21,052 nucleotides of DNA from a virus, in IMG/VR virus record IMGVR_UViG_3300035698_010750, positions 1-21,052 of that record; one strand, given 5' to 3'. Position 1 is the stretch's first letter; every line of letters starts with the position of its first letter. The translations under genes and the position numbers were made by a program. Under the pieces are notes generated by a model. That model was not told where the DNA came from and did not search any database. It saw only the letters and a list, made by a program, of their open reading frames with translations. Shown piece by piece: positions 8,022-20,434 of this stretch.

Positions 8022-8411
8022 ATGCCAACTATTATAGCAATGACGAAAACAAAAGATGCTGCGAGAATAGGGAACAACTTCGCTCAGTCTACTTGGTATA
8101 GTTTAAAAAAAATTACAGATGTTGAATTAAGTAAAGGTGATGAAGTAGAGATGAAATATGAAAAAGAAGGTAGGGAAAATGTAATCACAGAGATTAGTGT
8201 TACAGGAAAAGCCCCTGCTCAAACTCCTGATGCTCCAGCTAAAAAAGAGTGGAGAAGTAAGAGTCCAGAAGAAAGCGATTGTATTCGTAGACAAGCAGTA
8301 GGAAAGATGGTAGCTGAATCAGTTAAAGCATTAAAAGATTTTTCATCTACTGAGGATTTGATAGCATCAATTGAAATTATATTTAAAACATACGACGAGC
8401 TAACTAAATGA
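8022..8411 (+). CDS. Hypothetical replication-region protein, possible OB fold, 129 residues
   Basis: The N-terminal 60 residues alternate strands in an OB-like order (STWYSLKKITDVELSKGDEVEMKYEKEG, then VITEISVTG). A Pro/Ala linker and a C-terminal helical domain follow (DCIRRQAVGKMVAESVKAL, IASIEIIFKTYDEL). This build, and its place directly before the primase-helicase with which it overlaps by four bases (ATGA), fit a single-strand DNA binding or primosome accessory protein, but no diagnostic motif is present. It has the strongest Shine-Dalgarno in this part of the window, inside a possible hairpin. Confidence 0.6.
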   Translation: MPTIIAMTKTKDAARIGNNFAQSTWYSLKKITDVELSKGDEVEMKYEKEGRENVITEISVTGKAPAQTPDAPAKKEWRSKSPEESDCIRRQAVGKMVAESVKALKDFSSTEDLIASIEIIFKTYDELTK

Positions 8412-11182
8412 AAGAAATATTAGAACACACAATAGAGTATCTTAAAAAAACAATTCCTGATTTTAAAAAAAATCGTAAGGAATTTACTTGTCCTAGTTGT
8501 AAAGCTGACCCCCCAACATGTAATTTTATTAGTGATTATCACTATATCATGGCTTGTTGTAAATGTGGGTTTCAAGGAGATTTAACAGAGTTAATTAATC
8601 CTGATAAAGACAAAGCGTTAGAACAAATAAGAGACTTCTTGGGATTAAAAATTAAAATAAATCCAGAATTAGATGGTCTTTTTTCTTTTTATACAGATAA
8701 TGCTTTTGATTTAGTACCTGTACAAAAAAATGGTAAAGCACCTATTGAAAAAGACTGGACTAATAAGAACCATAAGAACCCAGATGAATGGAAGATGTGG
8801 TTAGAACGTGGATTGAATTTAGGAGTTAAGACAGGTAAAATTAGTAATATAACAGTTATAGATATAGACGACCCTACTTTAGTTGAAGAGATTAAAACTA
8901 TTTTTAACCCTACTACTTATCAAATAACTAATAAGGGTGTTCATTATTTCTATAAGTATGAAGAAGATTTGCCTAAAACAAGAATAGACAAATATAAAAT
9001 AGACATTGAAAATAACGGTGGGCAGGTAGTTATTGCTCCCTCTACAGTTGACGGAATTGAAAGAACAATAGTAGTAGATAAAATAGCTACGATGTCTCCT
9101 GAACTTAAAGAGTGGTTAGTAAAACAAGGAGTTAAGAAACCTCCAAGAATTGATATAACTGAACAAGAAACAGGAGAGAATATAGACCTATCTGTAATAC
9201 CAGAGGGTGGCAGGCATCACATTCTTATGAAGATAGGTGGAGTATTAAGAAAAGAATTAAATACTTCTCAATTAACATTTTCTTTAGGAGTATTAAATCA
9301 ATTAGCTTGTAATCCTAAACTAAATAAAGACGAGTTTAACGCTATTATTCAAAGCCTAAATAAGTATGATGGTTTTGATGAAAAAGACTTAGCTAAAACT
9401 ATCTTAAAGTATCTCTCAATCGTAGAGGAATGTACAGCGAGAGACGTTAAGGAAGCTCTAGGATTTAAGAAAGAAAGAATTGATAAAGTTCTTAGTTATC
9501 TATTAAAAGAAGGCTATGTAGTTAAGAAGAAAAGAATGTATCAAATTGTAAGAAAAGCTGAGTGGCATGATACTTGGATGGAAGAAACAAATGAAGTTCC
9601 TTATAAGTTACCTTACTTATATGATGTAGGAAAGGTTAGAAATGGAGACTTAATTCTAATCGGTGGTAAAAGTGGTACTGGAAAATGTTATGCTAAAGGA
9701 ACTCCAATATTAATGTATAATGGAGAATTTAAGTTTGTAGAAACAATTAAACCTAATGATAAATTAATGGGTATTGACAGCAAACCTAGAAAAGTTATTA
9801 AAATAGGAAATGGAAGAGGCAAATTATTTGAAATAAAACCTAAAAAAGGAACTTCTTTTACCGTAAATTTTGAACATATGCTTTCTCTAAAAAAAGAAGG
9901 TACAAATAATACAATTAATATCTCTGTAAAAGAATTTTTAACTAAAAATAAAACTTTTCAAAAACAGCATAAATTATATAGAGTTCCTATAAATTTTAAA
10001 GAAAAAAATATTCCCTTAGAACCTTATTTTTTAGGTCTTTGGTTAGGAGATGGATGTTCTTATTCATCTGGAATTTGTAATAACGATAAAGAAGTTCAAA
10101 GTTATTGTAAATCTTACTCCAAAAAACTAGGATTAAAGTTTTGGTTTGAAAAAGGTAAAAACGGAAAAGCAGATAGATTTAAAATAACTTCTGGAAGAGG
10201 CGGTAAAAGAGATAAATATAATCTTTCAACCGTTCTAAGAAAATTAAACTTATTATATAATAAACATATACCTATAAATTATAAAATAAATTCTCGTAAA
10301 AAAAGATTAGAATTATTAGCTGGATTATTAGATTCAGATGGATATTTAGGGCAAAACACTTTTTATTTTAGTAATAAATCGGAAAAATTAATTGATGATG
10401 TGAAATATTTAGCTAGTTCATTAGGGTTTTTAGTAACTAAAAAACCTAAATTTGTTAGCGAAAAAAAATATTATAGATTATCAATAATAGGAGACGGTTC
10501 ACTTATACCTACAAAAATAAAAAGAAAAAAAGCTAAAAAAAGAAGAAAAGGTTGGAAAAACCCTTTATATACTGGTTTTTCTATAATTCCAAAAAATAAA
10601 GACAATTATTATGGATTTGAAACGGATGGAAATCATCTTCATATAGTAAAAGAATTTATAGTAAATCATAATACTCATATAGCTATGAATATGATTAAAG
10701 AATTTAAAGACCAAAATATAAAACCTCATTATATATCTTTAGAATCAGGTTCAAGGTTTGCTGAAATAGCTAAAGAGTTATGTTTAATAGAAGGTGATTT
10801 TAAATGGTGTACTCATTTTAGTCCAGAGAGTATTGAGTTAGAACCAAACGCAGTTACTATTCTCGATTGGTTACTACCTAGAGATTACGCTAGTACAGAT
10901 AAGACTTACGAGCATTTTGCTAAGCAATTAGTAAAGCAAGGGGGAATATTGATAGTATTTTGTCAGCTTAGAAGAGACGGAAGTTTCTTTGCTGAAGATA
11001 TGATTAAATTCTTTCCTTCAATTATTGCTAAGTTCTTATACTCTAAGGAAGATGATGGAGAGGCTAGTAAGTTTGAGATAGTTAAAGTTAGAGAGCCATT
11101 AGATAAGAGACAAGGATTTGTTATTCCATGTTTCTACGATTGGCAAGCTAAAAGACTAAAAAGAGTACCAGATAAAGGATAG
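8408..11182 (+). CDS. Primase-polymerase/helicase split by an intein
   Basis: A 924-residue precursor. Residues 28-53 form a primase-type zinc ribbon (CPSC, CCKC). Residues about 95-215 match a bifunctional AEP primase-polymerase domain: APIEKDW, NLGVKTG, the metal motif VIDIDD (Asp152, Asp154) and KGVHYFYK. A winged-helix-like segment (CTARDVKEALGF) leads to a RecA-like ATPase with Walker A GGKSGTGK at 419-426. The intein starts at Cys427, immediately after the catalytic Lys, and ends at Asn755; Thr756 then completes the P-loop GKT. Downstream are a Walker B-like TILDWL and VFCQLRRDG. After splicing, about 595 residues remain. The protein should prime and unwind DNA at the phage fork. The helicase part is short for a DnaB/T7 gp4 motor. 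Confidence 0.87.
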   Translation: MKEILEHTIEYLKKTIPDFKKNRKEFTCPSCKADPPTCNFISDYHYIMACCKCGFQGDLTELINPDKDKALEQIRDFLGLKIKINPELDGLFSFYTDNAFDLVPVQKNGKAPIEKDWTNKNHKNPDEWKMWLERGLNLGVKTGKISNITVIDIDDPTLVEEIKTIFNPTTYQITNKGVHYFYKYEEDLPKTRIDKYKIDIENNGGQVVIAPSTVDGIERTIVVDKIATMSPELKEWLVKQGVKKPPRIDITEQETGENIDLSVIPEGGRHHILMKIGGVLRKELNTSQLTFSLGVLNQLACNPKLNKDEFNAIIQSLNKYDGFDEKDLAKTILKYLSIVEECTARDVKEALGFKKERIDKVLSYLLKEGYVVKKKRMYQIVRKAEWHDTWMEETNEVPYKLPYLYDVGKVRNGDLILIGGKSGTGKCYAKGTPILMYNGEFKFVETIKPNDKLMGIDSKPRKVIKIGNGRGKLFEIKPKKGTSFTVNFEHMLSLKKEGTNNTINISVKEFLTKNKTFQKQHKLYRVPINFKEKNIPLEPYFLGLWLGDGCSYSSGICNNDKEVQSYCKSYSKKLGLKFWFEKGKNGKADRFKITSGRGGKRDKYNLSTVLRKLNLLYNKHIPINYKINSRKKRLELLAGLLDSDGYLGQNTFYFSNKSEKLIDDVKYLASSLGFLVTKKPKFVSEKKYYRLSIIGDGSLIPTKIKRKKAKKRRKGWKNPLYTGFSIIPKNKDNYYGFETDGNHLHIVKEFIVNHNTHIAMNMIKEFKDQNIKPHYISLESGSRFAEIAKELCLIEGDFKWCTHFSPESIELEPNAVTILDWLLPRDYASTDKTYEHFAKQLVKQGGILIVFCQLRRDGSFFAEDMIKFFPSIIAKFLYSKEDDGEASKFEIVKVREPLDKRQGFVIPCFYDWQAKRLKRVPDKG
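9686..10672 (+). mobile_element. Intein with LAGLIDADG endonuclease in the helicase P-loop
   Basis: This in-frame insertion of 329 residues lies within the primase-helicase. The splice ends are typical: it begins CYAKGTPI (block A) and ends GNHLHIVKEFIVNHN (blocks F and G), followed by extein Thr. The block B histidine is in FTVNFEHML. The homing endonuclease carries both LAGLIDADG helices, YFLGLWLGDG and LLAGLLDSDG, each with its catalytic Asp, so it may be active. The mid-section is Lys-rich and A+T-rich compared with the extein. Self-splicing is needed to rebuild GGKSGTGKT, so helicase activity depends on it. Confidence 0.93.
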
Positions 11183-12756: not shown

Positions 12757-13220
12757 AAACTAATAATGAAATAAAAAAACAGATGCCTAAGTGGAAATAT
12801 TTTATTAGGCAATTTAACTACTGGGTAGTTAGGTTGCTTGATAAAAATTATCCTCTAATAAAAGATAATCGTTGTGATTGTCATTTTTTAGTACATGAAG
12901 ACCCAGAAAATAAATCTATTGTAGTTCGTTATAATACAAGAAGATTAGGTAAGTGGCCAGATTATATGATTATAGCAGGTATCTTTCACGAGATAGGTCA
13001 TATTAAACAAAGGTTTAGTGCGTATGATACTGAAACACAAATGATAGAAAGTGAAAGAGACGCAGAAATATTTTCTATTCAGATGTTAAAAACGTATTAT
13101 CCACAATATTTAAAACCTGTAATAGTTTGGACAAAAAGAAAATTAAAAGATGCTAAATGGAAAAAAGAAAATCTTATCCATTGGAAAGCTTTGATACAAA
13201 TTAAGGAATATAAGATATGA
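12753..13220 (+). CDS. HEIGH zinc metallopeptidase-like protein
   Basis: A 155-residue protein with FHEIGHIKQ: His79, Glu80 and His83 form an HExxH zinc site. ESERDAEIFSIQML about 25 residues later can supply the third ligand (Glu or Asp) and resembles the small gluzincin arrangement. The N-terminal third contains many aromatics (KYFIRQFNYWVVRLL). There is no signal peptide, so it should act in the cytoplasm. Phage proteins of this kind have been proposed as self-processing or host-targeting proteases; the target is unknown. It overlaps both neighbours by four bases (ATGA). Confidence 0.72.
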   Translation: MKTNNEIKKQMPKWKYFIRQFNYWVVRLLDKNYPLIKDNRCDCHFLVHEDPENKSIVVRYNTRRLGKWPDYMIIAGIFHEIGHIKQRFSAYDTETQMIESERDAEIFSIQMLKTYYPQYLKPVIVWTKRKLKDAKWKKENLIHWKALIQIKEYKI

Positions 13221-13771
13221 AGAACTGGTTCAGTGCAGATACACATTTTGGCCACGCTAATATTTTGAAATACTGTAAGCGTCCGTTTAAAGATGTAACA
13301 GAGATGAATGAAACTATAATCAAAAACCATAATGCCAGAGTTAAGCCAGAAGATACTGTTTTTTTCTTAGGAGATTTCTGTTTCAGAAATAGTCCTGGTG
13401 GAAAAAAGGGTGAAGGAAACTTACAAAAAGCTGATTATTATATCAGTAAATTAAACGGTAACTTTGTTTTTATTAAAGGTAATCATGACAGAAATAATTC
13501 TTTAAAAACCCCTATTGAGAGAGTAATTATCCGTTATGGTGGGAAGAAGATGTGTCTAGTACACAATCCTATCCACGCAGATAGTAAATATCCTATTAAC
13601 CTATGCGGGCATGTACACGAAAAATGGGAAATAAGACTTCTTGGAGAGGATTCTTTCTTAGTTAATGTCGGAGTAGACGTATGGGGGTTTAAGCCTGTTA
13701 CTTATGAAGAAATAAATAAAAGATTAAGTAAATGGAAAAGAGAAAATGACAAAAGTAAAAAGACCACATAA
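13217..13771 (+). CDS. Calcineurin-like metallophosphoesterase (second type)
   Basis: A 184-residue protein with WFSADTHFGHANIL at the N-terminus, FFLGDF, IKGNHDR, LVHNP and NLCGHVHEKW: the metal-binding set DxH, GD, GNHD, H and GHxH. This is the common phage/bacterial small phosphoesterase type, distinct from the MPPED-like protein at 314-991. The substrate is not known. Its 3' end overlaps the HNH gene by 26 bases, and its last residues (KRENDKSKKTT) may be altered by that insertion. Confidence 0.87.
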   Translation: MKNWFSADTHFGHANILKYCKRPFKDVTEMNETIIKNHNARVKPEDTVFFLGDFCFRNSPGGKKGEGNLQKADYYISKLNGNFVFIKGNHDRNNSLKTPIERVIIRYGGKKMCLVHNPIHADSKYPINLCGHVHEKWEIRLLGEDSFLVNVGVDVWGFKPVTYEEINKRLSKWKRENDKSKKTT

Positions 13772-14171
13772 AGAGGATTGTAAATGTCCTTTTTGTAGCA
13801 ATAAAAATGGCAAAAACAATCCTTTTTATGGTAAAAAACATACAAAAAAATCTAGAGAAAAAATTAGCAAAAATCACGCAGACTTTAAAGGAATTAAAAG
13901 CTCTAAATTTGGAGTAAAAGTATCTAAAGAAACAAAACAAAAGATAAGTGATAATCACGCAGATTTCTCTGGAAATAAAAATCCAATGACTAAAAATAAA
14001 ATTATTAATCATCATATTTATCTACGTGGTTACGAAGATACTATTAAAATAGAAACAAATAAACATCGAGCTTTACACGCAAGAGCTTATGATTATATTT
14101 TAGATAAATATGGAAAAAAAGGTATTAATAATTATTTAAAATGGTTTAATAAAAAATACGGATTAAAATAA
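13746..14171 (+). mobile_element. Free-standing NUMOD3/HNH homing endonuclease 1
   Basis: A 141-residue protein. A CPFC knuckle near residue 15 is followed by NUMOD3-type DNA-binding repeats: NPFYGKKHTKKSREKISKNH and KFGVKVSKETKQKISDNH. The C-terminal nuclease has INHHIYLRG and HRALHARAYDYILDKYG, an HNH-like pattern. Such genes move by cutting intron-less or gene-less alleles. It starts inside the 3' end of the phosphoesterase gene and ends directly before a GTG-started gene, and both borders carry a similar sequence, suggesting insertion between two formerly adjacent genes. It is highly Lys-rich and A+T-rich. Confidence 0.8.
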
Positions 14172-14636
14172 GTGGAAAAGAAACCAAAAAAAGACATAGG
14201 AACAGCCAAGGAGAGGCGCAAGAAGTTTGATAAGTGGATTAGCATGGACCAATATTATAGTAGCCAAGGCAAAATCCGCCCAATCTATGCGCCCTCTTCT
14301 GGTAATAATTTTAAGAAAAAAAAGATTAAATGTTGTGTATGTAAAGACTTAGGGTTTAATAACTTTACATGTAAAGCAGATAATCAATGGTATTGCGAAG
14401 ACTGCGCTAAATATTATGACTCTAGAAATAAAGATAGACGCTTATTAAATTTGTTTCAAAATAAAACTAAATCAGATTTTGACAAAATATATGAGGCTAA
14501 AAAATGGTTACACTTAGTAATAAAGTACTTGAAAAAGCTTTTGATAAGAAAATTATCCCAAACATCACGTGCTTGGGAGTTGATACTGCAAGTCGTACAG
14601 GCTGGTGTAAAGCGACTACTACCAAAAAAGAAGTAG
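14172..14636 (+). CDS. Zinc-ribbon protein, GTG start
   Basis: A 154-residue reading frame. Residues 1-50 are basic (AKERRKKFDKW, GKIRPIYAPSSG). Residues 54-78 form a zinc ribbon with CVCK and YCEDC (Cys54/57 and Cys75/78). The final 44 residues lie over the start of the resolvase gene in another frame, look unlike the rest and may be non-functional read-through. The GTG directly follows the HNH stop codon and lacks a good ribosome binding site, as if the original ATG leader was displaced by the HNH insertion. Its first 130 bases are richer in G and C than the neighbours. Family not recognised. Confidence 0.65.
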   Translation: MEKKPKKDIGTAKERRKKFDKWISMDQYYSSQGKIRPIYAPSSGNNFKKKKIKCCVCKDLGFNNFTCKADNQWYCEDCAKYYDSRNKDRRLLNLFQNKTKSDFDKIYEAKKWLHLVIKYLKKLLIRKLSQTSRAWELILQVVQAGVKRLLPKKK

Positions 14637-15034: not shown

Positions 15035-15123
15035 AATTTTAAATGTCTACTATAATTGGAGAAGTAATTTTAATAGTAGACTCTTTGATTTTAAAAATAA
15101 AAAACATTTACGGAGAAAAACTA

Positions 15124-16068
15124 ATGTCTGATATTAAAACTTTAGTAAAAGAATTAAGTAAAGACGGTTTTGTAATTAAAACAGCTGATACTCTAAGGAA
15201 ACCAGAGAAAATTAGAACTGACGTATTCTCTTTAGATTTTGTTTTAGACGGAGGTATATCCCAATGTGAAGGCGGACATAGGTTAGAGTTTTGGGGAGCA
15301 GAGAGTAGTGGTAAAACAACTTTTGCTCTTCATGTTATTAAAAAGTATCAAAAACTTAAAAAGACTTGCGTATTTATAGACGCAGAAAGGTCTTATGATA
15401 CTGATTGGGGTAGTAAAATGGGAGTTGATAATAAAAACCTTATTATAGCCTACCCAAATACCTTAGAAGATTGTGGAGACTTATTAGTTAGACTTATACC
15501 TGAAGTAGATTTGATTGTCATTGATAGTATAGTAGGTTTAATTCCTATGGGAGAATCAGAAAGAGATACAGAATCTCCTCAAGTAGCATTACAAGCAAGA
15601 GTAAATTCTCTTATTACTAGAAAAATATACGGAACAGTAGGTGAAAGAGCTGTTACTTTTATATTTATTAACCAACTAAGACAAAAAATAGGAGGATATG
15701 GAAACCCAAATACTTCTGCTGGAGGTAACGCTTTAAAACATATGTATAGTACTAGAATAGAGTTTAAGAAAGCTAAACCTATTAAAGAAGGAGATGAAAA
15801 GATAGGAATAGAACTTAAACTAAACTGTATTAAGAATAAAAAAGGTCGTCCTAATAGAGTAGCTGAAATAGATTTTTATTTAGACGGTAGTTTAGATAAT
15901 ACAAAAAGTTTATTTTACGCAGGTTTAAAGTTTGGTGTTATAGAAAGAACAGGAAATACTTATAATTTTAAGGACAAAAAATCTGCTGGTAAGGATAAGT
16001 TTATTGAATTATTAGAAGAAAAAGATTGGAAAACAATGGAGAATGAAATATGGAAAACTTTAAAATGA
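15124..16068 (+). CDS. RecA/UvsX-like recombinase
   Basis: A 314-residue RecA-family ATPase. FSLDFVLDGGI, Walker A GAESSGKT at 58-65, FIDAERSYD (catalytic Glu region), Walker B LIVIDS, the L1-like region after PMGESERD, INQLRQKIG and the L2/C-terminal SAGGNALKHM are in the order of RecA and UvsX. It should form filaments on single-stranded DNA for recombination-dependent replication and repair. I chose ATG 15124 because GGAG at 15112-15115 is 8 bases upstream and the protein then begins in the normal place; the frame stays open to 15043 but that extension lacks a ribosome binding site. Confidence 0.9.
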   Translation: MSDIKTLVKELSKDGFVIKTADTLRKPEKIRTDVFSLDFVLDGGISQCEGGHRLEFWGAESSGKTTFALHVIKKYQKLKKTCVFIDAERSYDTDWGSKMGVDNKNLIIAYPNTLEDCGDLLVRLIPEVDLIVIDSIVGLIPMGESERDTESPQVALQARVNSLITRKIYGTVGERAVTFIFINQLRQKIGGYGNPNTSAGGNALKHMYSTRIEFKKAKPIKEGDEKIGIELKLNCIKNKKGRPNRVAEIDFYLDGSLDNTKSLFYAGLKFGVIERTGNTYNFKDKKSAGKDKFIELLEEKDWKTMENEIWKTLK

Positions 16069-16238
16069 GATTAACTCTTAGAGACGAAGTTCGACAAGTA
16101 GACATAACTTGTCATAGAGATTCAGATATTTTTGAAGTAATGAGAGAAATTAGAGGACTATTAATAGCTTGGGGATATCATGAAGCAACTGTACTTGAAG
16201 GTTGTGAATATATAGTAGAAGAATATAAGGAAGATTAA
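16050..16238 (+). CDS. Small acidic hypothetical protein, 62 residues
   Basis: Overlaps the recA-like gene by 19 bases and ends in TAATG shared with the second HNH gene. It has a beta-strand pair (MRLTLRDEVRQVDITC) followed by a helix (DIFEVMREIRGLLIAWGY) and a final strand, a compact alpha/beta build. GGAG-containing sequence precedes the ATG. It resembles many short phage proteins next to recombination genes but has no named family that I recognise. Confidence 0.65.
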   Translation: MENFKMRLTLRDEVRQVDITCHRDSDIFEVMREIRGLLIAWGYHEATVLEGCEYIVEEYKED

Positions 16239-16759
16239 TGGCATATTCTGGAAAACCAAGAGGTATGACTGGAAAAAAACATTCTACTATAGCTAAGAAA
16301 AAAATGAGTTTGGCTAAAGTTGGTAAACATCCTTGGAATTATAAACTAACTAAAGAAACAGATGAAAGACTTAAATTATGTAGTAAAAAATATAAAAACA
16401 GAAAGATTACTTGGAAAAATAAACTTAGAAAACCCCATAAGATGTCTGAAGAAGGGAAAGCTCAAATAAGAAAAAATGGTTTAGGACATAAAGTTAGCAA
16501 AAAAATTAGAAAAATAATAGCTGAAAAAGTTTCTAAAGCAACTAAAGGAAAAAAGAATATTAAAGTAAGACATCATTTATATGGTAAAAACTCTGAAGAG
16601 ATTTTAAATACAACTAGAAGTTTACATAGAAAAATACATAGTTCAGCTTATTGGTATTTATTAGAAGTTTTAGGAAAAAAAGAGATTGATAAATATATAA
16701 AATGGTTTTTTAAAAAACAGGGGAAAGAAAATTCAACTACAAAATATAGCAAACTTTAA
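16238..16759 (+). mobile_element. Free-standing NUMOD3/HNH homing endonuclease 2
   Basis: A 173-residue protein with three NUMOD3-like blocks (GMTGKKHSTIAKKKMSLA, PHKMSEEGKAQIRKNG, GHKVSKKIRKIIAEKVS) and a C-terminal nuclease with VRHHLYGKN and RSLHRKIHSSAYWYLLE, closely parallel to HNH 1, including a shared KWF.KK C-terminal pattern. That parallel suggests its natural end is near 16724; the final ten residues (ENSTTKYSKL) read over the start of the polymerase gene in a different frame. Its ATG overlaps the upstream stop codon. Confidence 0.78.
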
Positions 16760-19700
16760 AAGAAAAATTTATTTATTTATTAGAGAAAATGATGGTTCTC
16801 TAACAATAACAAATGATGATAAATTTTATCCTTTCTACTATGAACCTGCTGATGATGGAGATTATTATGGATATGATGGTATTCCTCTTAAAAAAATAAT
16901 AGTATCAGAACCAAATGAGATAGCAAAACAAAGGAGTTCTCAAAGTTATAGTGCTGATATTAAATTTGTAAATAATTATTTGATTCATAAAGTTGATAAA
17001 CTTACAGTAGCAAAACCTAAGTATTTGTTTATAGATATAGAGGTTGTATCTCCAAAGGAGTTCCCAGAACCAGCTCAAGCGAAATATCCAATTAGTTGTA
17101 TTACTGTATATAACTCTTTAGATAAAGACTATGTTACTTGGTGGTTACCTGATTATGAAAATGAAAAAGAAATGTTAGATGATTTTTGTTTCTACGTTCA
17201 TGGAGAAGCACCTGATATTATCTTAGCTTGGAATGTTCAGTTTGATTACACTTACTTACATAATAGGATTAAAGATTTTGCTAAAAGAATTAGTCCTATT
17301 GGTTTAAGTAGATACGGAGAAGGAGAGAATTTATTTTATCCTACTGGTATTAGTATAGTTGATTATCTAGGTTTATATAAAAAAGTATTTATGAGAGAAG
17401 CAAGCTATGCGTTAGATTATATAGCTCAAACTAGATTAAAAGAAAAGCCTTGGCCAAAGACAGACTTTGGAGAGGTAAGTGAATTAGTTAAAGCTAAGAA
17501 TATTAATGACGTTAAGAGAATGGTTAAGATTGAAACTAACGAACAGTTAATAGATTACTATAATGAGATTAGATGTTTAACTAAAACGAAGTGGGAAGAT
17601 TTATATTTTAATAGTAGGATTGTAGAAATGCTCTTACTAGAAGAAGCCAAACTTAAAAACGTAGTACTTCCTAATAAACAAAAAGTATCTGAAAAAGGAG
17701 AGTTTCAAGGAGCTACAAGAGAATCAGAACTTATGGGAGCCCAGTTTAATATAGGGAAGTTTGACTTAGGTTCAGCTTATCCTAATATGATAGTAAACTT
17801 TTGTTTAGACTCTCAAAATATAGACCCAGTTAAGCTAGACGAAAATATAGAAATAGACGGAGTTTATTATAGTCAAAATAAAGAAGCTCTATTACCTTCT
17901 ATCGTTAAAAAAATCTTAATTTTAAAAGATGACCTAAAAGTTCAACAAAAAAAAGACCCACGATTAAAAAAGAAGTACGATGGTATTAAGGCTGTGGTAA
18001 ACAGCACCTTTGGAGTCATGGGGAACCAATACTTTCGTTTATATGATAATAGAGTTGCTTCTAGTATTACATATTTAGTAAGGGATTTAATCCATTATAC
18101 TAGAAAACGTTTAAAAGAGAAGAATGTAGACGTTGTTTACTGGGATACAGACAGTTGCGCAAAAGACACTCCAATATTAATAAAAGAAAATAATAATATT
18201 AATATTATTCCTATTGAAGATTTATATTGTGCTCCTAAATCAAAAAATACAAAAGAAATAGAAATTAAAAATAATATAAAAATTTGGACTGATAAAGGTT
18301 GGAGTAAAATTAAATATGTATATAGACATAAAACCGATAAAACGATGTACAGAATTTATACTAGAAAAGGAATTGTTGAAGTTTCTGAAGACCATTCATT
18401 AATAATAAATAATAAAGAAATAAAACCAAACGAATTAAATATAGGAGATACTATAGATATTATTGATTTTCCTAAAATATATAATATTATTCAAGTAAAT
18501 TTAGATTTAGCTTGGATAATAGGATTCTTTTTAGCTGAGGGGCATTGTAATAAAATATTATATAAGAAAAAAGATGTTAAAAGACGTTGGACAATTTCGA
18601 ACCAAAATAAATTTTTATTACAAAAAGCCCAAAAAATATTAAATACATACGGATTTAATACTATTATAAAAGACTATAGAAAATCTAGTAATTGTTATAG
18701 TTTAAGACCTATTAAATCTAAAATTCCTTTACATTCTATTTTTGAATATTGGTGTTTAACAAAAACAGGGGATAAAAAAATTCCTAATTTTATTCTCCAG
18801 TCCTCAAAAGAATCTTTAAAATCTTTTTTAAAAGGATATTTTGAAGGAGACGCAAACATACAAAATAATATTACTACTGTAATGACAATTGATAAATCAT
18901 TAGCCCAAGGAGTTTGTTTTATTTTAAATAGATTAGAAATAGATTATTCTTTAGGATTGCGTAAAAATAAACCGAATGTAACTGTAATTAGATTAATAAA
19001 TAATAAACATGATAAAAGAATTAAACAATATAATAAAATTAAAAATATAATAAAATTTAAAGTTGATGATTATATTTATGATATAGAAACAGAAAATCAT
19101 CATTTTTGTGGTGGAGTTGGAAATGTTTTATTACATAATAGTGTCTTTACAACTACTATTGAAGACATTACTGAAGACCTAAACCAATATATTCAAGATT
19201 GGGGTAGACAATATAACAAAGATAGTATTGATATGAAGTATGATTATGAAGGATATTTCACTGCGGTCTTTTTCTTAGGAAAATGTCACTATTTCGGACA
19301 TATTTTTGGAAAGACAGAACCAGAGATTAAGGGAGTAGAAATTACTCGTAGTAGTTCTAGTAAATATGAAGCTCATTTTCAGCAAGAACTATTAGAACTA
19401 GTCTTAGCTAAAAAATCTAAAGATGAAGTTGTAGATTGGATTACTTCTGAAAAAGAAAGATTAAAAACTTTACCTATAGAACAAATAGGGTTTCCAGCTA
19501 AGATTCAAAATAAAGTATACAAGACTCTTACTATTTTTAAAAGAGCCTATGACCTTAGTAGAAGTATTAATTCAAAGTTTGAAGTAAATTCTGGAGAGCT
19601 GTTTTATTATATCTTTGTAAAACCTATTACTAAAGACGATAACGTATTAGCTTTTAAACAAGATAATAAAGACTTTATAGATTGGAGTATACATTTAGAT

Positions 19701-19811
19701 TGGGACGCTATTGCTAAGAGAAGTATTATTAAAAAAGCTAAGACTATATTTGAAGCCCAAGGTTGGGAGACAAGTAAACTTGATAACCCAGACCAACTAG
19801 GATTATTTTAA
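16731..19811 (+). CDS. Family B DNA polymerase with intein; non-ATG start
   Basis: Exonuclease motifs are YLFIDIEV, AWNVQFDYTYLHNRI and IVDYLGLYKK; polymerase motifs are A, FDLGSAYPNM; B, KAVVNSTFGVMGN; and C, YWDTDS, which is split by an intein and continues SVFTT. The frame is open from 16701, and the stretch before 16980 is clearly polymerase N-terminal domain (KRKIYLFIREND, FYPFYYEP, IPLKKIIVSEP, SADIKFVNNYLI), so the TTG at 16980 is not the start. No ATG, GTG or TTG lies further upstream in frame. ATT 16731, with AGGGG at 16719-16723, is my best guess; frameshifting from the overlapping HNH gene is the alternative. About 1026 residues before splicing and 698 after. It should be the replicative polymerase. 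Confidence 0.85.
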   Translation: MQLQNIANFKRKIYLFIRENDGSLTITNDDKFYPFYYEPADDGDYYGYDGIPLKKIIVSEPNEIAKQRSSQSYSADIKFVNNYLIHKVDKLTVAKPKYLFIDIEVVSPKEFPEPAQAKYPISCITVYNSLDKDYVTWWLPDYENEKEMLDDFCFYVHGEAPDIILAWNVQFDYTYLHNRIKDFAKRISPIGLSRYGEGENLFYPTGISIVDYLGLYKKVFMREASYALDYIAQTRLKEKPWPKTDFGEVSELVKAKNINDVKRMVKIETNEQLIDYYNEIRCLTKTKWEDLYFNSRIVEMLLLEEAKLKNVVLPNKQKVSEKGEFQGATRESELMGAQFNIGKFDLGSAYPNMIVNFCLDSQNIDPVKLDENIEIDGVYYSQNKEALLPSIVKKILILKDDLKVQQKKDPRLKKKYDGIKAVVNSTFGVMGNQYFRLYDNRVASSITYLVRDLIHYTRKRLKEKNVDVVYWDTDSCAKDTPILIKENNNINIIPIEDLYCAPKSKNTKEIEIKNNIKIWTDKGWSKIKYVYRHKTDKTMYRIYTRKGIVEVSEDHSLIINNKEIKPNELNIGDTIDIIDFPKIYNIIQVNLDLAWIIGFFLAEGHCNKILYKKKDVKRRWTISNQNKFLLQKAQKILNTYGFNTIIKDYRKSSNCYSLRPIKSKIPLHSIFEYWCLTKTGDKKIPNFILQSSKESLKSFLKGYFEGDANIQNNITTVMTIDKSLAQGVCFILNRLEIDYSLGLRKNKPNVTVIRLINNKHDKRIKQYNKIKNIIKFKVDDYIYDIETENHHFCGGVGNVLLHNSVFTTTIEDITEDLNQYIQDWGRQYNKDSIDMKYDYEGYFTAVFFLGKCHYFGHIFGKTEPEIKGVEITRSSSSKYEAHFQQELLELVLAKKSKDEVVDWITSEKERLKTLPIEQIGFPAKIQNKVYKTLTIFKRAYDLSRSINSKFEVNSGELFYYIFVKPITKDDNVLAFKQDNKDFIDWSIHLDWDAIAKRSIIKKAKTIFEAQGWETSKLDNPDQLGLF
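18156..19139 (+). mobile_element. Intein with LAGLIDADG endonuclease in polymerase motif C
   Basis: A 328-residue in-frame insertion directly after DTDS of motif C. It begins CAKDTPILIKEN (block A), has VEVSEDHSLI (block B His), two endonuclease helices, AWIIGFFLAEGH and FLKGYFEGDAN with Glu and Asp at the catalytic positions, and ends DYIYDIETENHHF then NVLLHN (blocks F and G); the next extein residue is Ser. Archaeal and viral family B polymerases carry inteins in the same catalytic motif. Splicing is required to restore the metal-binding Asp environment, so unspliced polymerase should be inactive. Confidence 0.93.
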
Positions 19812-20434
19812 TGATTGAATTTGTATCTCCGAAACAATGTATTGTTAGATATTGTACTTGGAGTAAAATTTCAAAGTTAATGAAACAATATCATTATAAA
19901 GAAGATCATATAGGTGGAAATATAGAAAAATGTTTTGGATTATATTTTCAAAATAGATTAATAGGTGGGATGGCGTTCGGTTATCCTAGACATAATAAGA
20001 AGTATTCACAAAATGGAAAATATAAAGTTTGGGACTTAAGAAGATTATGTTGTATAGACGATACTCCTAAAAATACAGAAAGTTATTTTATTGGAAAAGT
20101 ATTAAAAATTATAAGAGATAAAACTGACGTAGATTTTGTAATTAGTTATTCAGATACAACTGTAGGGCATTACGGTATTATTTATAGAGCTAGTAATTTT
20201 GAACAAATAGGAACTACTGGTAAATCCAAATATGTTTTATGGAATAATAAACGATATCATGTACGAAGCTTAACGATAGACAGACCTTATTCTTATAGAT
20301 TAAGAGAAGCAATAAAAACTGGAGAAGCTGAACTTAAAATAGGAAAAGAAAAATTTATATATAGATATAAAATTAGAAGGAAAAATAATATGAATAAGAT
20401 TAAACAATTAGTCTTATTTGAAGGAGGTGATTAA
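19811..20434 (+). CDS. Mom-like DNA adenine modification protein
   Basis: A 207-residue protein with the pattern of the phage Mu Mom family, a GNAT-related fold that converts adenine in phage DNA to a methylcarbamoyl form and blocks restriction. Supporting blocks are KLMKQYHYKED, LIGGMAFGYPRHN, KVWDLRRLCCIDDTPKNTESYFIGKVLKII, VDFVISYSDTTVGHYGIIYRASNFEQIGTT and a basic C-terminal segment. The R-L-x2-x-D-D-x-x-x-N-x-x-S and SY-D-x4-GH-G-x-IY-A-SN strings are the most telling. The ATG overlaps the polymerase stop, so the protein is probably made with the replisome. The exact chemical product cannot be read from sequence. Confidence 0.78.
   Translation: MIEFVSPKQCIVRYCTWSKISKLMKQYHYKEDHIGGNIEKCFGLYFQNRLIGGMAFGYPRHNKKYSQNGKYKVWDLRRLCCIDDTPKNTESYFIGKVLKIIRDKTDVDFVISYSDTTVGHYGIIYRASNFEQIGTTGKSKYVLWNNKRYHVRSLTIDRPYSYRLREAIKTGEAELKIGKEKFIYRYKIRRKNNMNKIKQLVLFEGGD
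20421..20431 (+). promoter_or_regulatory. Extended perfect Shine-Dalgarno sequence
   Basis: AAGGAGGTGAT is complementary to eleven bases at the 3' end of bacterial 16S rRNA, an unusually long match. It lies 9 bases before ATG 20441 when measured from its 3' end (13 from AGGAGG) and inside the end of the Mom-like gene. It supports a host with canonical Shine-Dalgarno initiation. Confidence 0.7.

Follow-up and report, generated by a model that had tools for sequence, protein, structure and literature searches.

The window analysed here, a 21,052-base viral record from IMG/VR, carries a RecA/UvsX-like gene, a small gene, the putative endonuclease gene HEG2, a DNA polymerase gene and a Mom-like gene in this order (Table 1). 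The polymerase frame is preceded by TAA at 16698-16700 and stays open from 16701 to 19811. Between 16701 and TTG 16980 it contains no ATG, GTG or TTG; the possible initiators in this interval are ATT 16731, ATA 16746, ATT 16767, ATT 16779, ATA 16806 and further ATN codons. The initial annotation had described this open frame and its missing start, the run TTTTTTAAAAAACAGGGG at 16706-16723, and an upstream gene (16238-16759, called HNH there) ending in the frame from which a +1 shift enters the polymerase, and every one of these details proved correct.

Table 1. Features of the window around the polymerase start and the phosphoesterase-like gene.
Feature	Position	Strand	Remarks
Phosphoesterase-like gene	13217-13771	+	ATG start in the window; the L008 orthologue would start at ATT
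HEG1, second window member of the HEG2 family	13746-14171	+	GTG-started ORF directly after, at 14172
RecA/UvsX-like gene	15043-16068		first in the gene order
Small gene	16050-16238	+	function not known; directly 5' of HEG2
HEG2, NUMOD3-containing putative free-standing homing endonuclease	16238-16759	+	
T6/A6/CAGGGG run	16706-16723	+	FFKKQG in the endonuclease frame
AGGGG, candidate polymerase Shine-Dalgarno sequence	16719-16723	+	inside HEG2, 7 nt before ATT; from duplex energy
ATT, inferred polymerase start codon	16731-16733	+	homologous to the ATG of relatives
Polymerase N-terminal stretch, 83 codons	16731-16979	+	missed by start-codon rules; from homologues and AlphaFold
T4 gp43-like family B DNA polymerase	16731-19811	+	1026 codons including the intein
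Mom-like gene	19811-20434		3' of the polymerase

Exonuclease motifs (FIDIE, WN..FDY, YNEIR) and polymerase motifs (DLGSAYP, KAVVNSTFGV, DTDS) place the product among the T4 gp43-like family B DNA polymerases. Position 12 of the phrog_262 (DNA polymerase) profile aligns with residue 15 of the open frame, and RB69 gp43 is the best fold match of an AlphaFold model computed from a 23-row alignment. The window enzyme resembles RB69 and T4 gp43 in fold and in the order of the N-terminal and exonuclease domains, whereas sequence identity is about 20% and the window polymerase has an intein in motif C. The exonuclease I Asp is residue 102 in the window polymerase; its RB69 counterpart is residue 114. 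Unless translation starts at ATT 16731, the exonuclease domain is not preceded by an N-terminal domain of normal length.

The intein in motif C (WDTD^SVF; 329 aa, 18153-19139) contains a LAGLIDADG domain. Polymerase inteins of relatives lie at other motifs (near motif A in locus L012 and near motif B in L037; L numbers denote the retrieved loci), and the L001 polymerase has no intein. A second intein of about 329 aa (9686-10672) occupies the Walker A GTGK site of a primase/helicase-like gene (8408-11182). In L033, on the minus strand, the polymerase ORF continues into a domain resembling the Mom-like protein of the window (33% over 105 aa, E 9e-16), which makes it a polymerase-Mom-like fusion. 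The contig edge (1-220) is a low-complexity repeat with repetitive peptides in two frames. A megablast search against phages gave no match, and no polymerase relatives were found in genome contigs.

HEG2 contains a NUMOD3 motif (PF07460, E 4.1e-5, above the curated cut-off). Its first codon shares bases with the stop of the small gene before it (TAATG), and its 3' end overlaps the inferred polymerase start by 29 nt. Twelve members of the HEG2 family, one of them broken, were found in these viruses. They share the C-terminal stretch HH.YL.....H...LH..AY.Y...G..GID.YLKWF.KK.G, and they are scattered over different insertion sites and absent in relatives. A His-Me-finger (HNH-type) catalytic fold is a candidate for this region, in which HH.Y...H...H is invariant and two strands and a helix are predicted in the order strand-strand-helix. 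HEG2 is a putative homing endonuclease, which may cleave DNA and home. Searches for a nuclease domain gave no Pfam nuclease match for HEG2, no credible match of its C-terminal domain profile to PDB sequences, and no significant match in a fold search, where the model had a pTM of 0.37 and the result is uninformative either way. No HEG2 relatives were detected in phages (down to E 0.1) or in genome contigs.

The stop codons of this family usually touch the start of the next gene. The junctions comprise ATGA overlaps (L022, L023), an ATG just before the stop (L020), an ATG just after it (L021, L028), and the GTG after HEG1. The latter gene sits just 3' of the phosphoesterase gene, and related endonucleases occupy the same place in L021 and L023. 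In L027 (2050-3103) a family member is fused in frame, with no intervening stop, to a cytidylyltransferase-like protein. The first codons of that protein (MKLVYTY; ATG AAA TTA GTA TAT ACT TAT) are also present 5' of the endonuclease as a short copy, which looks like a start that was duplicated or rebuilt on insertion. The same polymerase gene is preceded in L069 (5223-6014) by a putative homing endonuclease of a different kind, with a 14 nt overlap and the ATG kept, and the polymerase start seems to be a repeated insertion site. In L077 (2842-3258) the small gene just 5' of the polymerase apparently has an HNH-like domain (HHRDGDQHNN) joined to its N-terminus.

The likely beginning of the polymerase emerges from a comparison with 21 non-redundant relatives that have a complete 5' end and were obtained from scans of viral contigs. 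Sixteen of them (L007, L008, L009, L031, L033, L037, L064, L065, L066, L069, L070, L072, L073, L075, L077, L079) have ATG exactly in the column of ATT 16731, five start 1-4 codons earlier (L010, L011, L067 with GTG, L074, L078), and none starts later. The correspondence is visible codon by codon, as L007 reads ATG AAG CTA TTA AAT ATT GCT AAT and the window ATT CAA CTA CAA AAT ATA GCA AAC. The 83 codons from 16731 to 16979 are true polymerase sequence, carried by the 16 homologues from their own ATG and conserved in all 21 relatives. Together with the phrog_262 alignment, this bears out the view of the initial annotation that the residues upstream of TTG 16980 are genuine family B N-terminal sequence; relatives lacking the stretch, which would have spoken against it, did not appear. 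In the AlphaFold model, pLDDT is about 88-97 for residues 1-83 and 95 for residues 1-10, counted from ATT; residues 1-83 are predicted to form six strands of the N-terminal domain, the first of which spans residues 3-9. In the window, ATT thus takes the place of the homologous start codon, and no standard start lies nearby in frame.

Initiation signals were scored by the pairing energy between the 16S tail and the bases from -18 to -4 relative to each start. ATT 16731 is preceded by AGGGG at a spacing of 7 nt, within the 5-9 nt range of a Shine-Dalgarno sequence, and the energy of -6.5 kcal/mol falls among those of most other genes in the window (about -5 to -9 kcal/mol). For the remaining in-frame ATN codons that were scored, the energies lie close to zero or above it.

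A second case of the same kind occurs in L008. There, an endonuclease gene of the HEG2 family (446-913) lies directly 5' of the phosphoesterase gene. In L007 the same two neighbours are joined without an endonuclease, and the junction reads AAAAAAGGATTAATATAA A ATG CGT TAT TTT TTT ACA. In L008 the end of the upstream gene is followed by the endonuclease and then by TTTGGAGGTGATTAAA ATT CGT TAT TGG TTT ACA. The homologous ATG is exactly replaced by ATT, behind an extended GGAGGTGAT with an energy of -13.6 kcal/mol. A GTG three codons 5' of this ATT overlaps the Shine-Dalgarno sequence and has none of its own. Since an arbitrary triplet in the window is ATT only about 3.6% of the time, and since the same replacement is found at the same column in L008, the ATT of the polymerase is not readily put down to chance. 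Among the 175 genes of the retrieved loci whose starts were compared, ATT at a homologous ATG occurs only in the window polymerase and the L008 phosphoesterase; elsewhere, departures from this pattern are GTG starts or reflect homologues of another N-terminal length. ATT starts are thus associated with two of about ten genes behind endonucleases of this family and with none of 165 others (Fisher p = 0.003, calculated post hoc on genes that are not independent), which is a pointer to an association of endonuclease and ATT, not proof.

Initiation at ATT 16731 is the best reading of these data; a fusion by frameshift, an indel and a protein shortened at its N-terminus are less convincing. Among the three options named by the initial annotation, the ATT start with its AGGGG is favoured by the homologous column, the strength of the Shine-Dalgarno sequence and the L008 case, while the fusion and the indel fared poorly. 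Probably, then, a NUMOD3 endonuclease gene was inserted where the polymerase gene begins, ATT 16731 is used as start codon, and a full-length polymerase is made.

The alternative that fares best accepts the ATT start and regards the change as an ordinary point mutation unrelated to the endonuclease. ATG and ATT differ by one base, and most endonucleases of the HEG2 family leave ATG starts; however, only two cases are found in 175 genes, both directly behind endonucleases of this family, and such a coincidence appears unlikely. Not every such insertion alters the start codon: most endonuclease relatives stand before ATG-started genes and the L069 endonuclease leaves the polymerase ATG intact. 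These observations speak against a causal link. A relative with the same gene order and no endonuclease at the polymerase site was not found, nor were near-identical copies of the junction, with any base at 16733, in viral contigs.

An error of assembly or sequencing, either an indel in the T6, A6 or G4 run or a wrong base at 16733, could hide a normal start. The sequence is a single copy in a metagenomic contig, homopolymers are near, and one added T would bring ATG 16702 into frame. However, the endonuclease frame continues across the run to give the KWFxKKxG end conserved in the family, and an added T would turn it into KWFF-stop. An indel is unlikely because the T6 and A6 lengths are needed for this conserved end; moreover, ATG 16702 has no Shine-Dalgarno sequence and no indel would create an ATG in the homologous column. 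As for a wrong base at 16733, the independent L008 case lowers its probability, because there the same ATT occurs in another contig and another gene without such runs. Overall, an error is very improbable.

A fusion of endonuclease and polymerase, made by a programmed +1 shift where the endonuclease gene ends, has still less in its favour and is hardly to be expected. The endonuclease frame does enter the polymerase by +1, and the related endonuclease of L027 reads in frame into the cytidylyltransferase-like protein. Yet the slippery heptamer A-AAA-AAC supports a -1 shift, which leads to the wrong frame, and a reading of AAAAAAC as a -1 site was rejected on this ground. Neither a stop nor a rare codon is evident as a stimulus for +1, and the separate Shine-Dalgarno sequence and homologous start make a fusion unnecessary.

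Two further readings have next to no likelihood. TTG 16980 is the first standard in-frame start codon, but its energy of +0.8 kcal/mol indicates no Shine-Dalgarno sequence, and a start there would remove the conserved domain encoded by the 83 upstream codons, as no relative begins later than the ATT column. The other, just as remote, places the endonuclease within an unrecognised intron. Joining ATG 16238 to CAA 16734, or ATG 446 of L008 to CGT, the codons after ATT, would produce a perfect gene with an insert of about 490 nt. The 5' exons of group I introns end in U, and group II introns begin with GUGYG; here the 5' exon would end in G and no GUGYG follows. In addition, the ORF fills the whole insert, and a search for a structured ribozyme core gave no Rfam intron match at gathering or relaxed thresholds. 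Bypassing of the T4 gene 60 type was also considered and rejected: the distance to be skipped would be about 490 nt, and ATG as take-off codon does not match ATT as landing codon.

In the favoured reading, insertion of a free-standing NUMOD3-type homing endonuclease gene with initiation of the polymerase at ATT, the last endonuclease codons would hold the polymerase Shine-Dalgarno sequence AGGGG and overlap the first ten polymerase codons. Ribosomes would bind AGGGG in the endonuclease message, and AUU 16731 would be read by initiator tRNA as fMet. The product would be a normal full-length T4 gp43-like polymerase that starts where its relatives use ATG. Initiation at AUU would probably be well below that at AUG, and ribosomes that end the endonuclease at 16759, 26 nt past AUU, could add re-initiation. 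Because the endonuclease carries the polymerase ribosome-binding site, the phage could not simply delete it, and its loss would be costly. Against the proposal, AUU is inefficient and thus odd for an essential enzyme. A more tentative extension, which we regard as doubtful, is that the HEG2 family inserts at or just after start codons, takes the ATG and ribosome-binding site, and supplies a 3' replacement (a Shine-Dalgarno sequence plus AAAATT). The ATT would then bring back translation of the displaced essential gene, yet avoid recreating the ATG-containing target, and leave a self-immune, hard-to-delete cassette.

Parts of this arrangement have precedents. The homing genes of T4-like phages (mobE, segG, mobA, and seg43 of Aeromonas phage 25), as portrayed in the relevant part of PMC2988022, likewise are promoter-less cassettes between or over essential replication genes, show UAAUGA-type overlaps with the upstream gene, and hold expression signals of the downstream essential gene; the T4 gene 32 promoters, for example, lie within segG (PMC2988022). 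In that account the endonucleases start with AUG or GUG and no AUU-started downstream gene is described, whereas in the window it is the downstream start that differs. Rare AUU or AUA starts with a Shine-Dalgarno sequence are used by infC and pcnB of E. coli and by cvfC1 and ccpN of S. aureus, and the same lower, IF3-sensitive initiation would be expected here; in S. aureus, such starts with strong Shine-Dalgarno sequences reach about 10% of AUG (PMC13009471). However, those are stable, conserved chromosomal regulatory starts, while in relatives of the window polymerase the start is ATG, and the change is found together with a mobile gene. The ShiLan element in phage methylases is also an HNH endonuclease that overlaps its host gene in another frame, but translation passes through it in frame within the host protein, in contrast to the window endonuclease, which sits before the start (PMC11855218). 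AUU starts are known, and so are homing genes before T4-like genes; an earlier report of their combination was not found in the literature on homing endonucleases and AUU or non-canonical phage starts, a search that lay mostly outside subscription journals and is weak evidence of absence.

If correct, this reading would mean that a replication enzyme essential to a phage depends on AUU, which would be unusual. Standard gene callers take mainly ATG, GTG and TTG, and genes of this kind would come out of annotation either shortened or joined to an endonuclease. Should ATT starts prove to recur in genes that follow homing endonucleases, a mobile element may reshape the initiation of essential replication genes and thereby gain protection from deletion.
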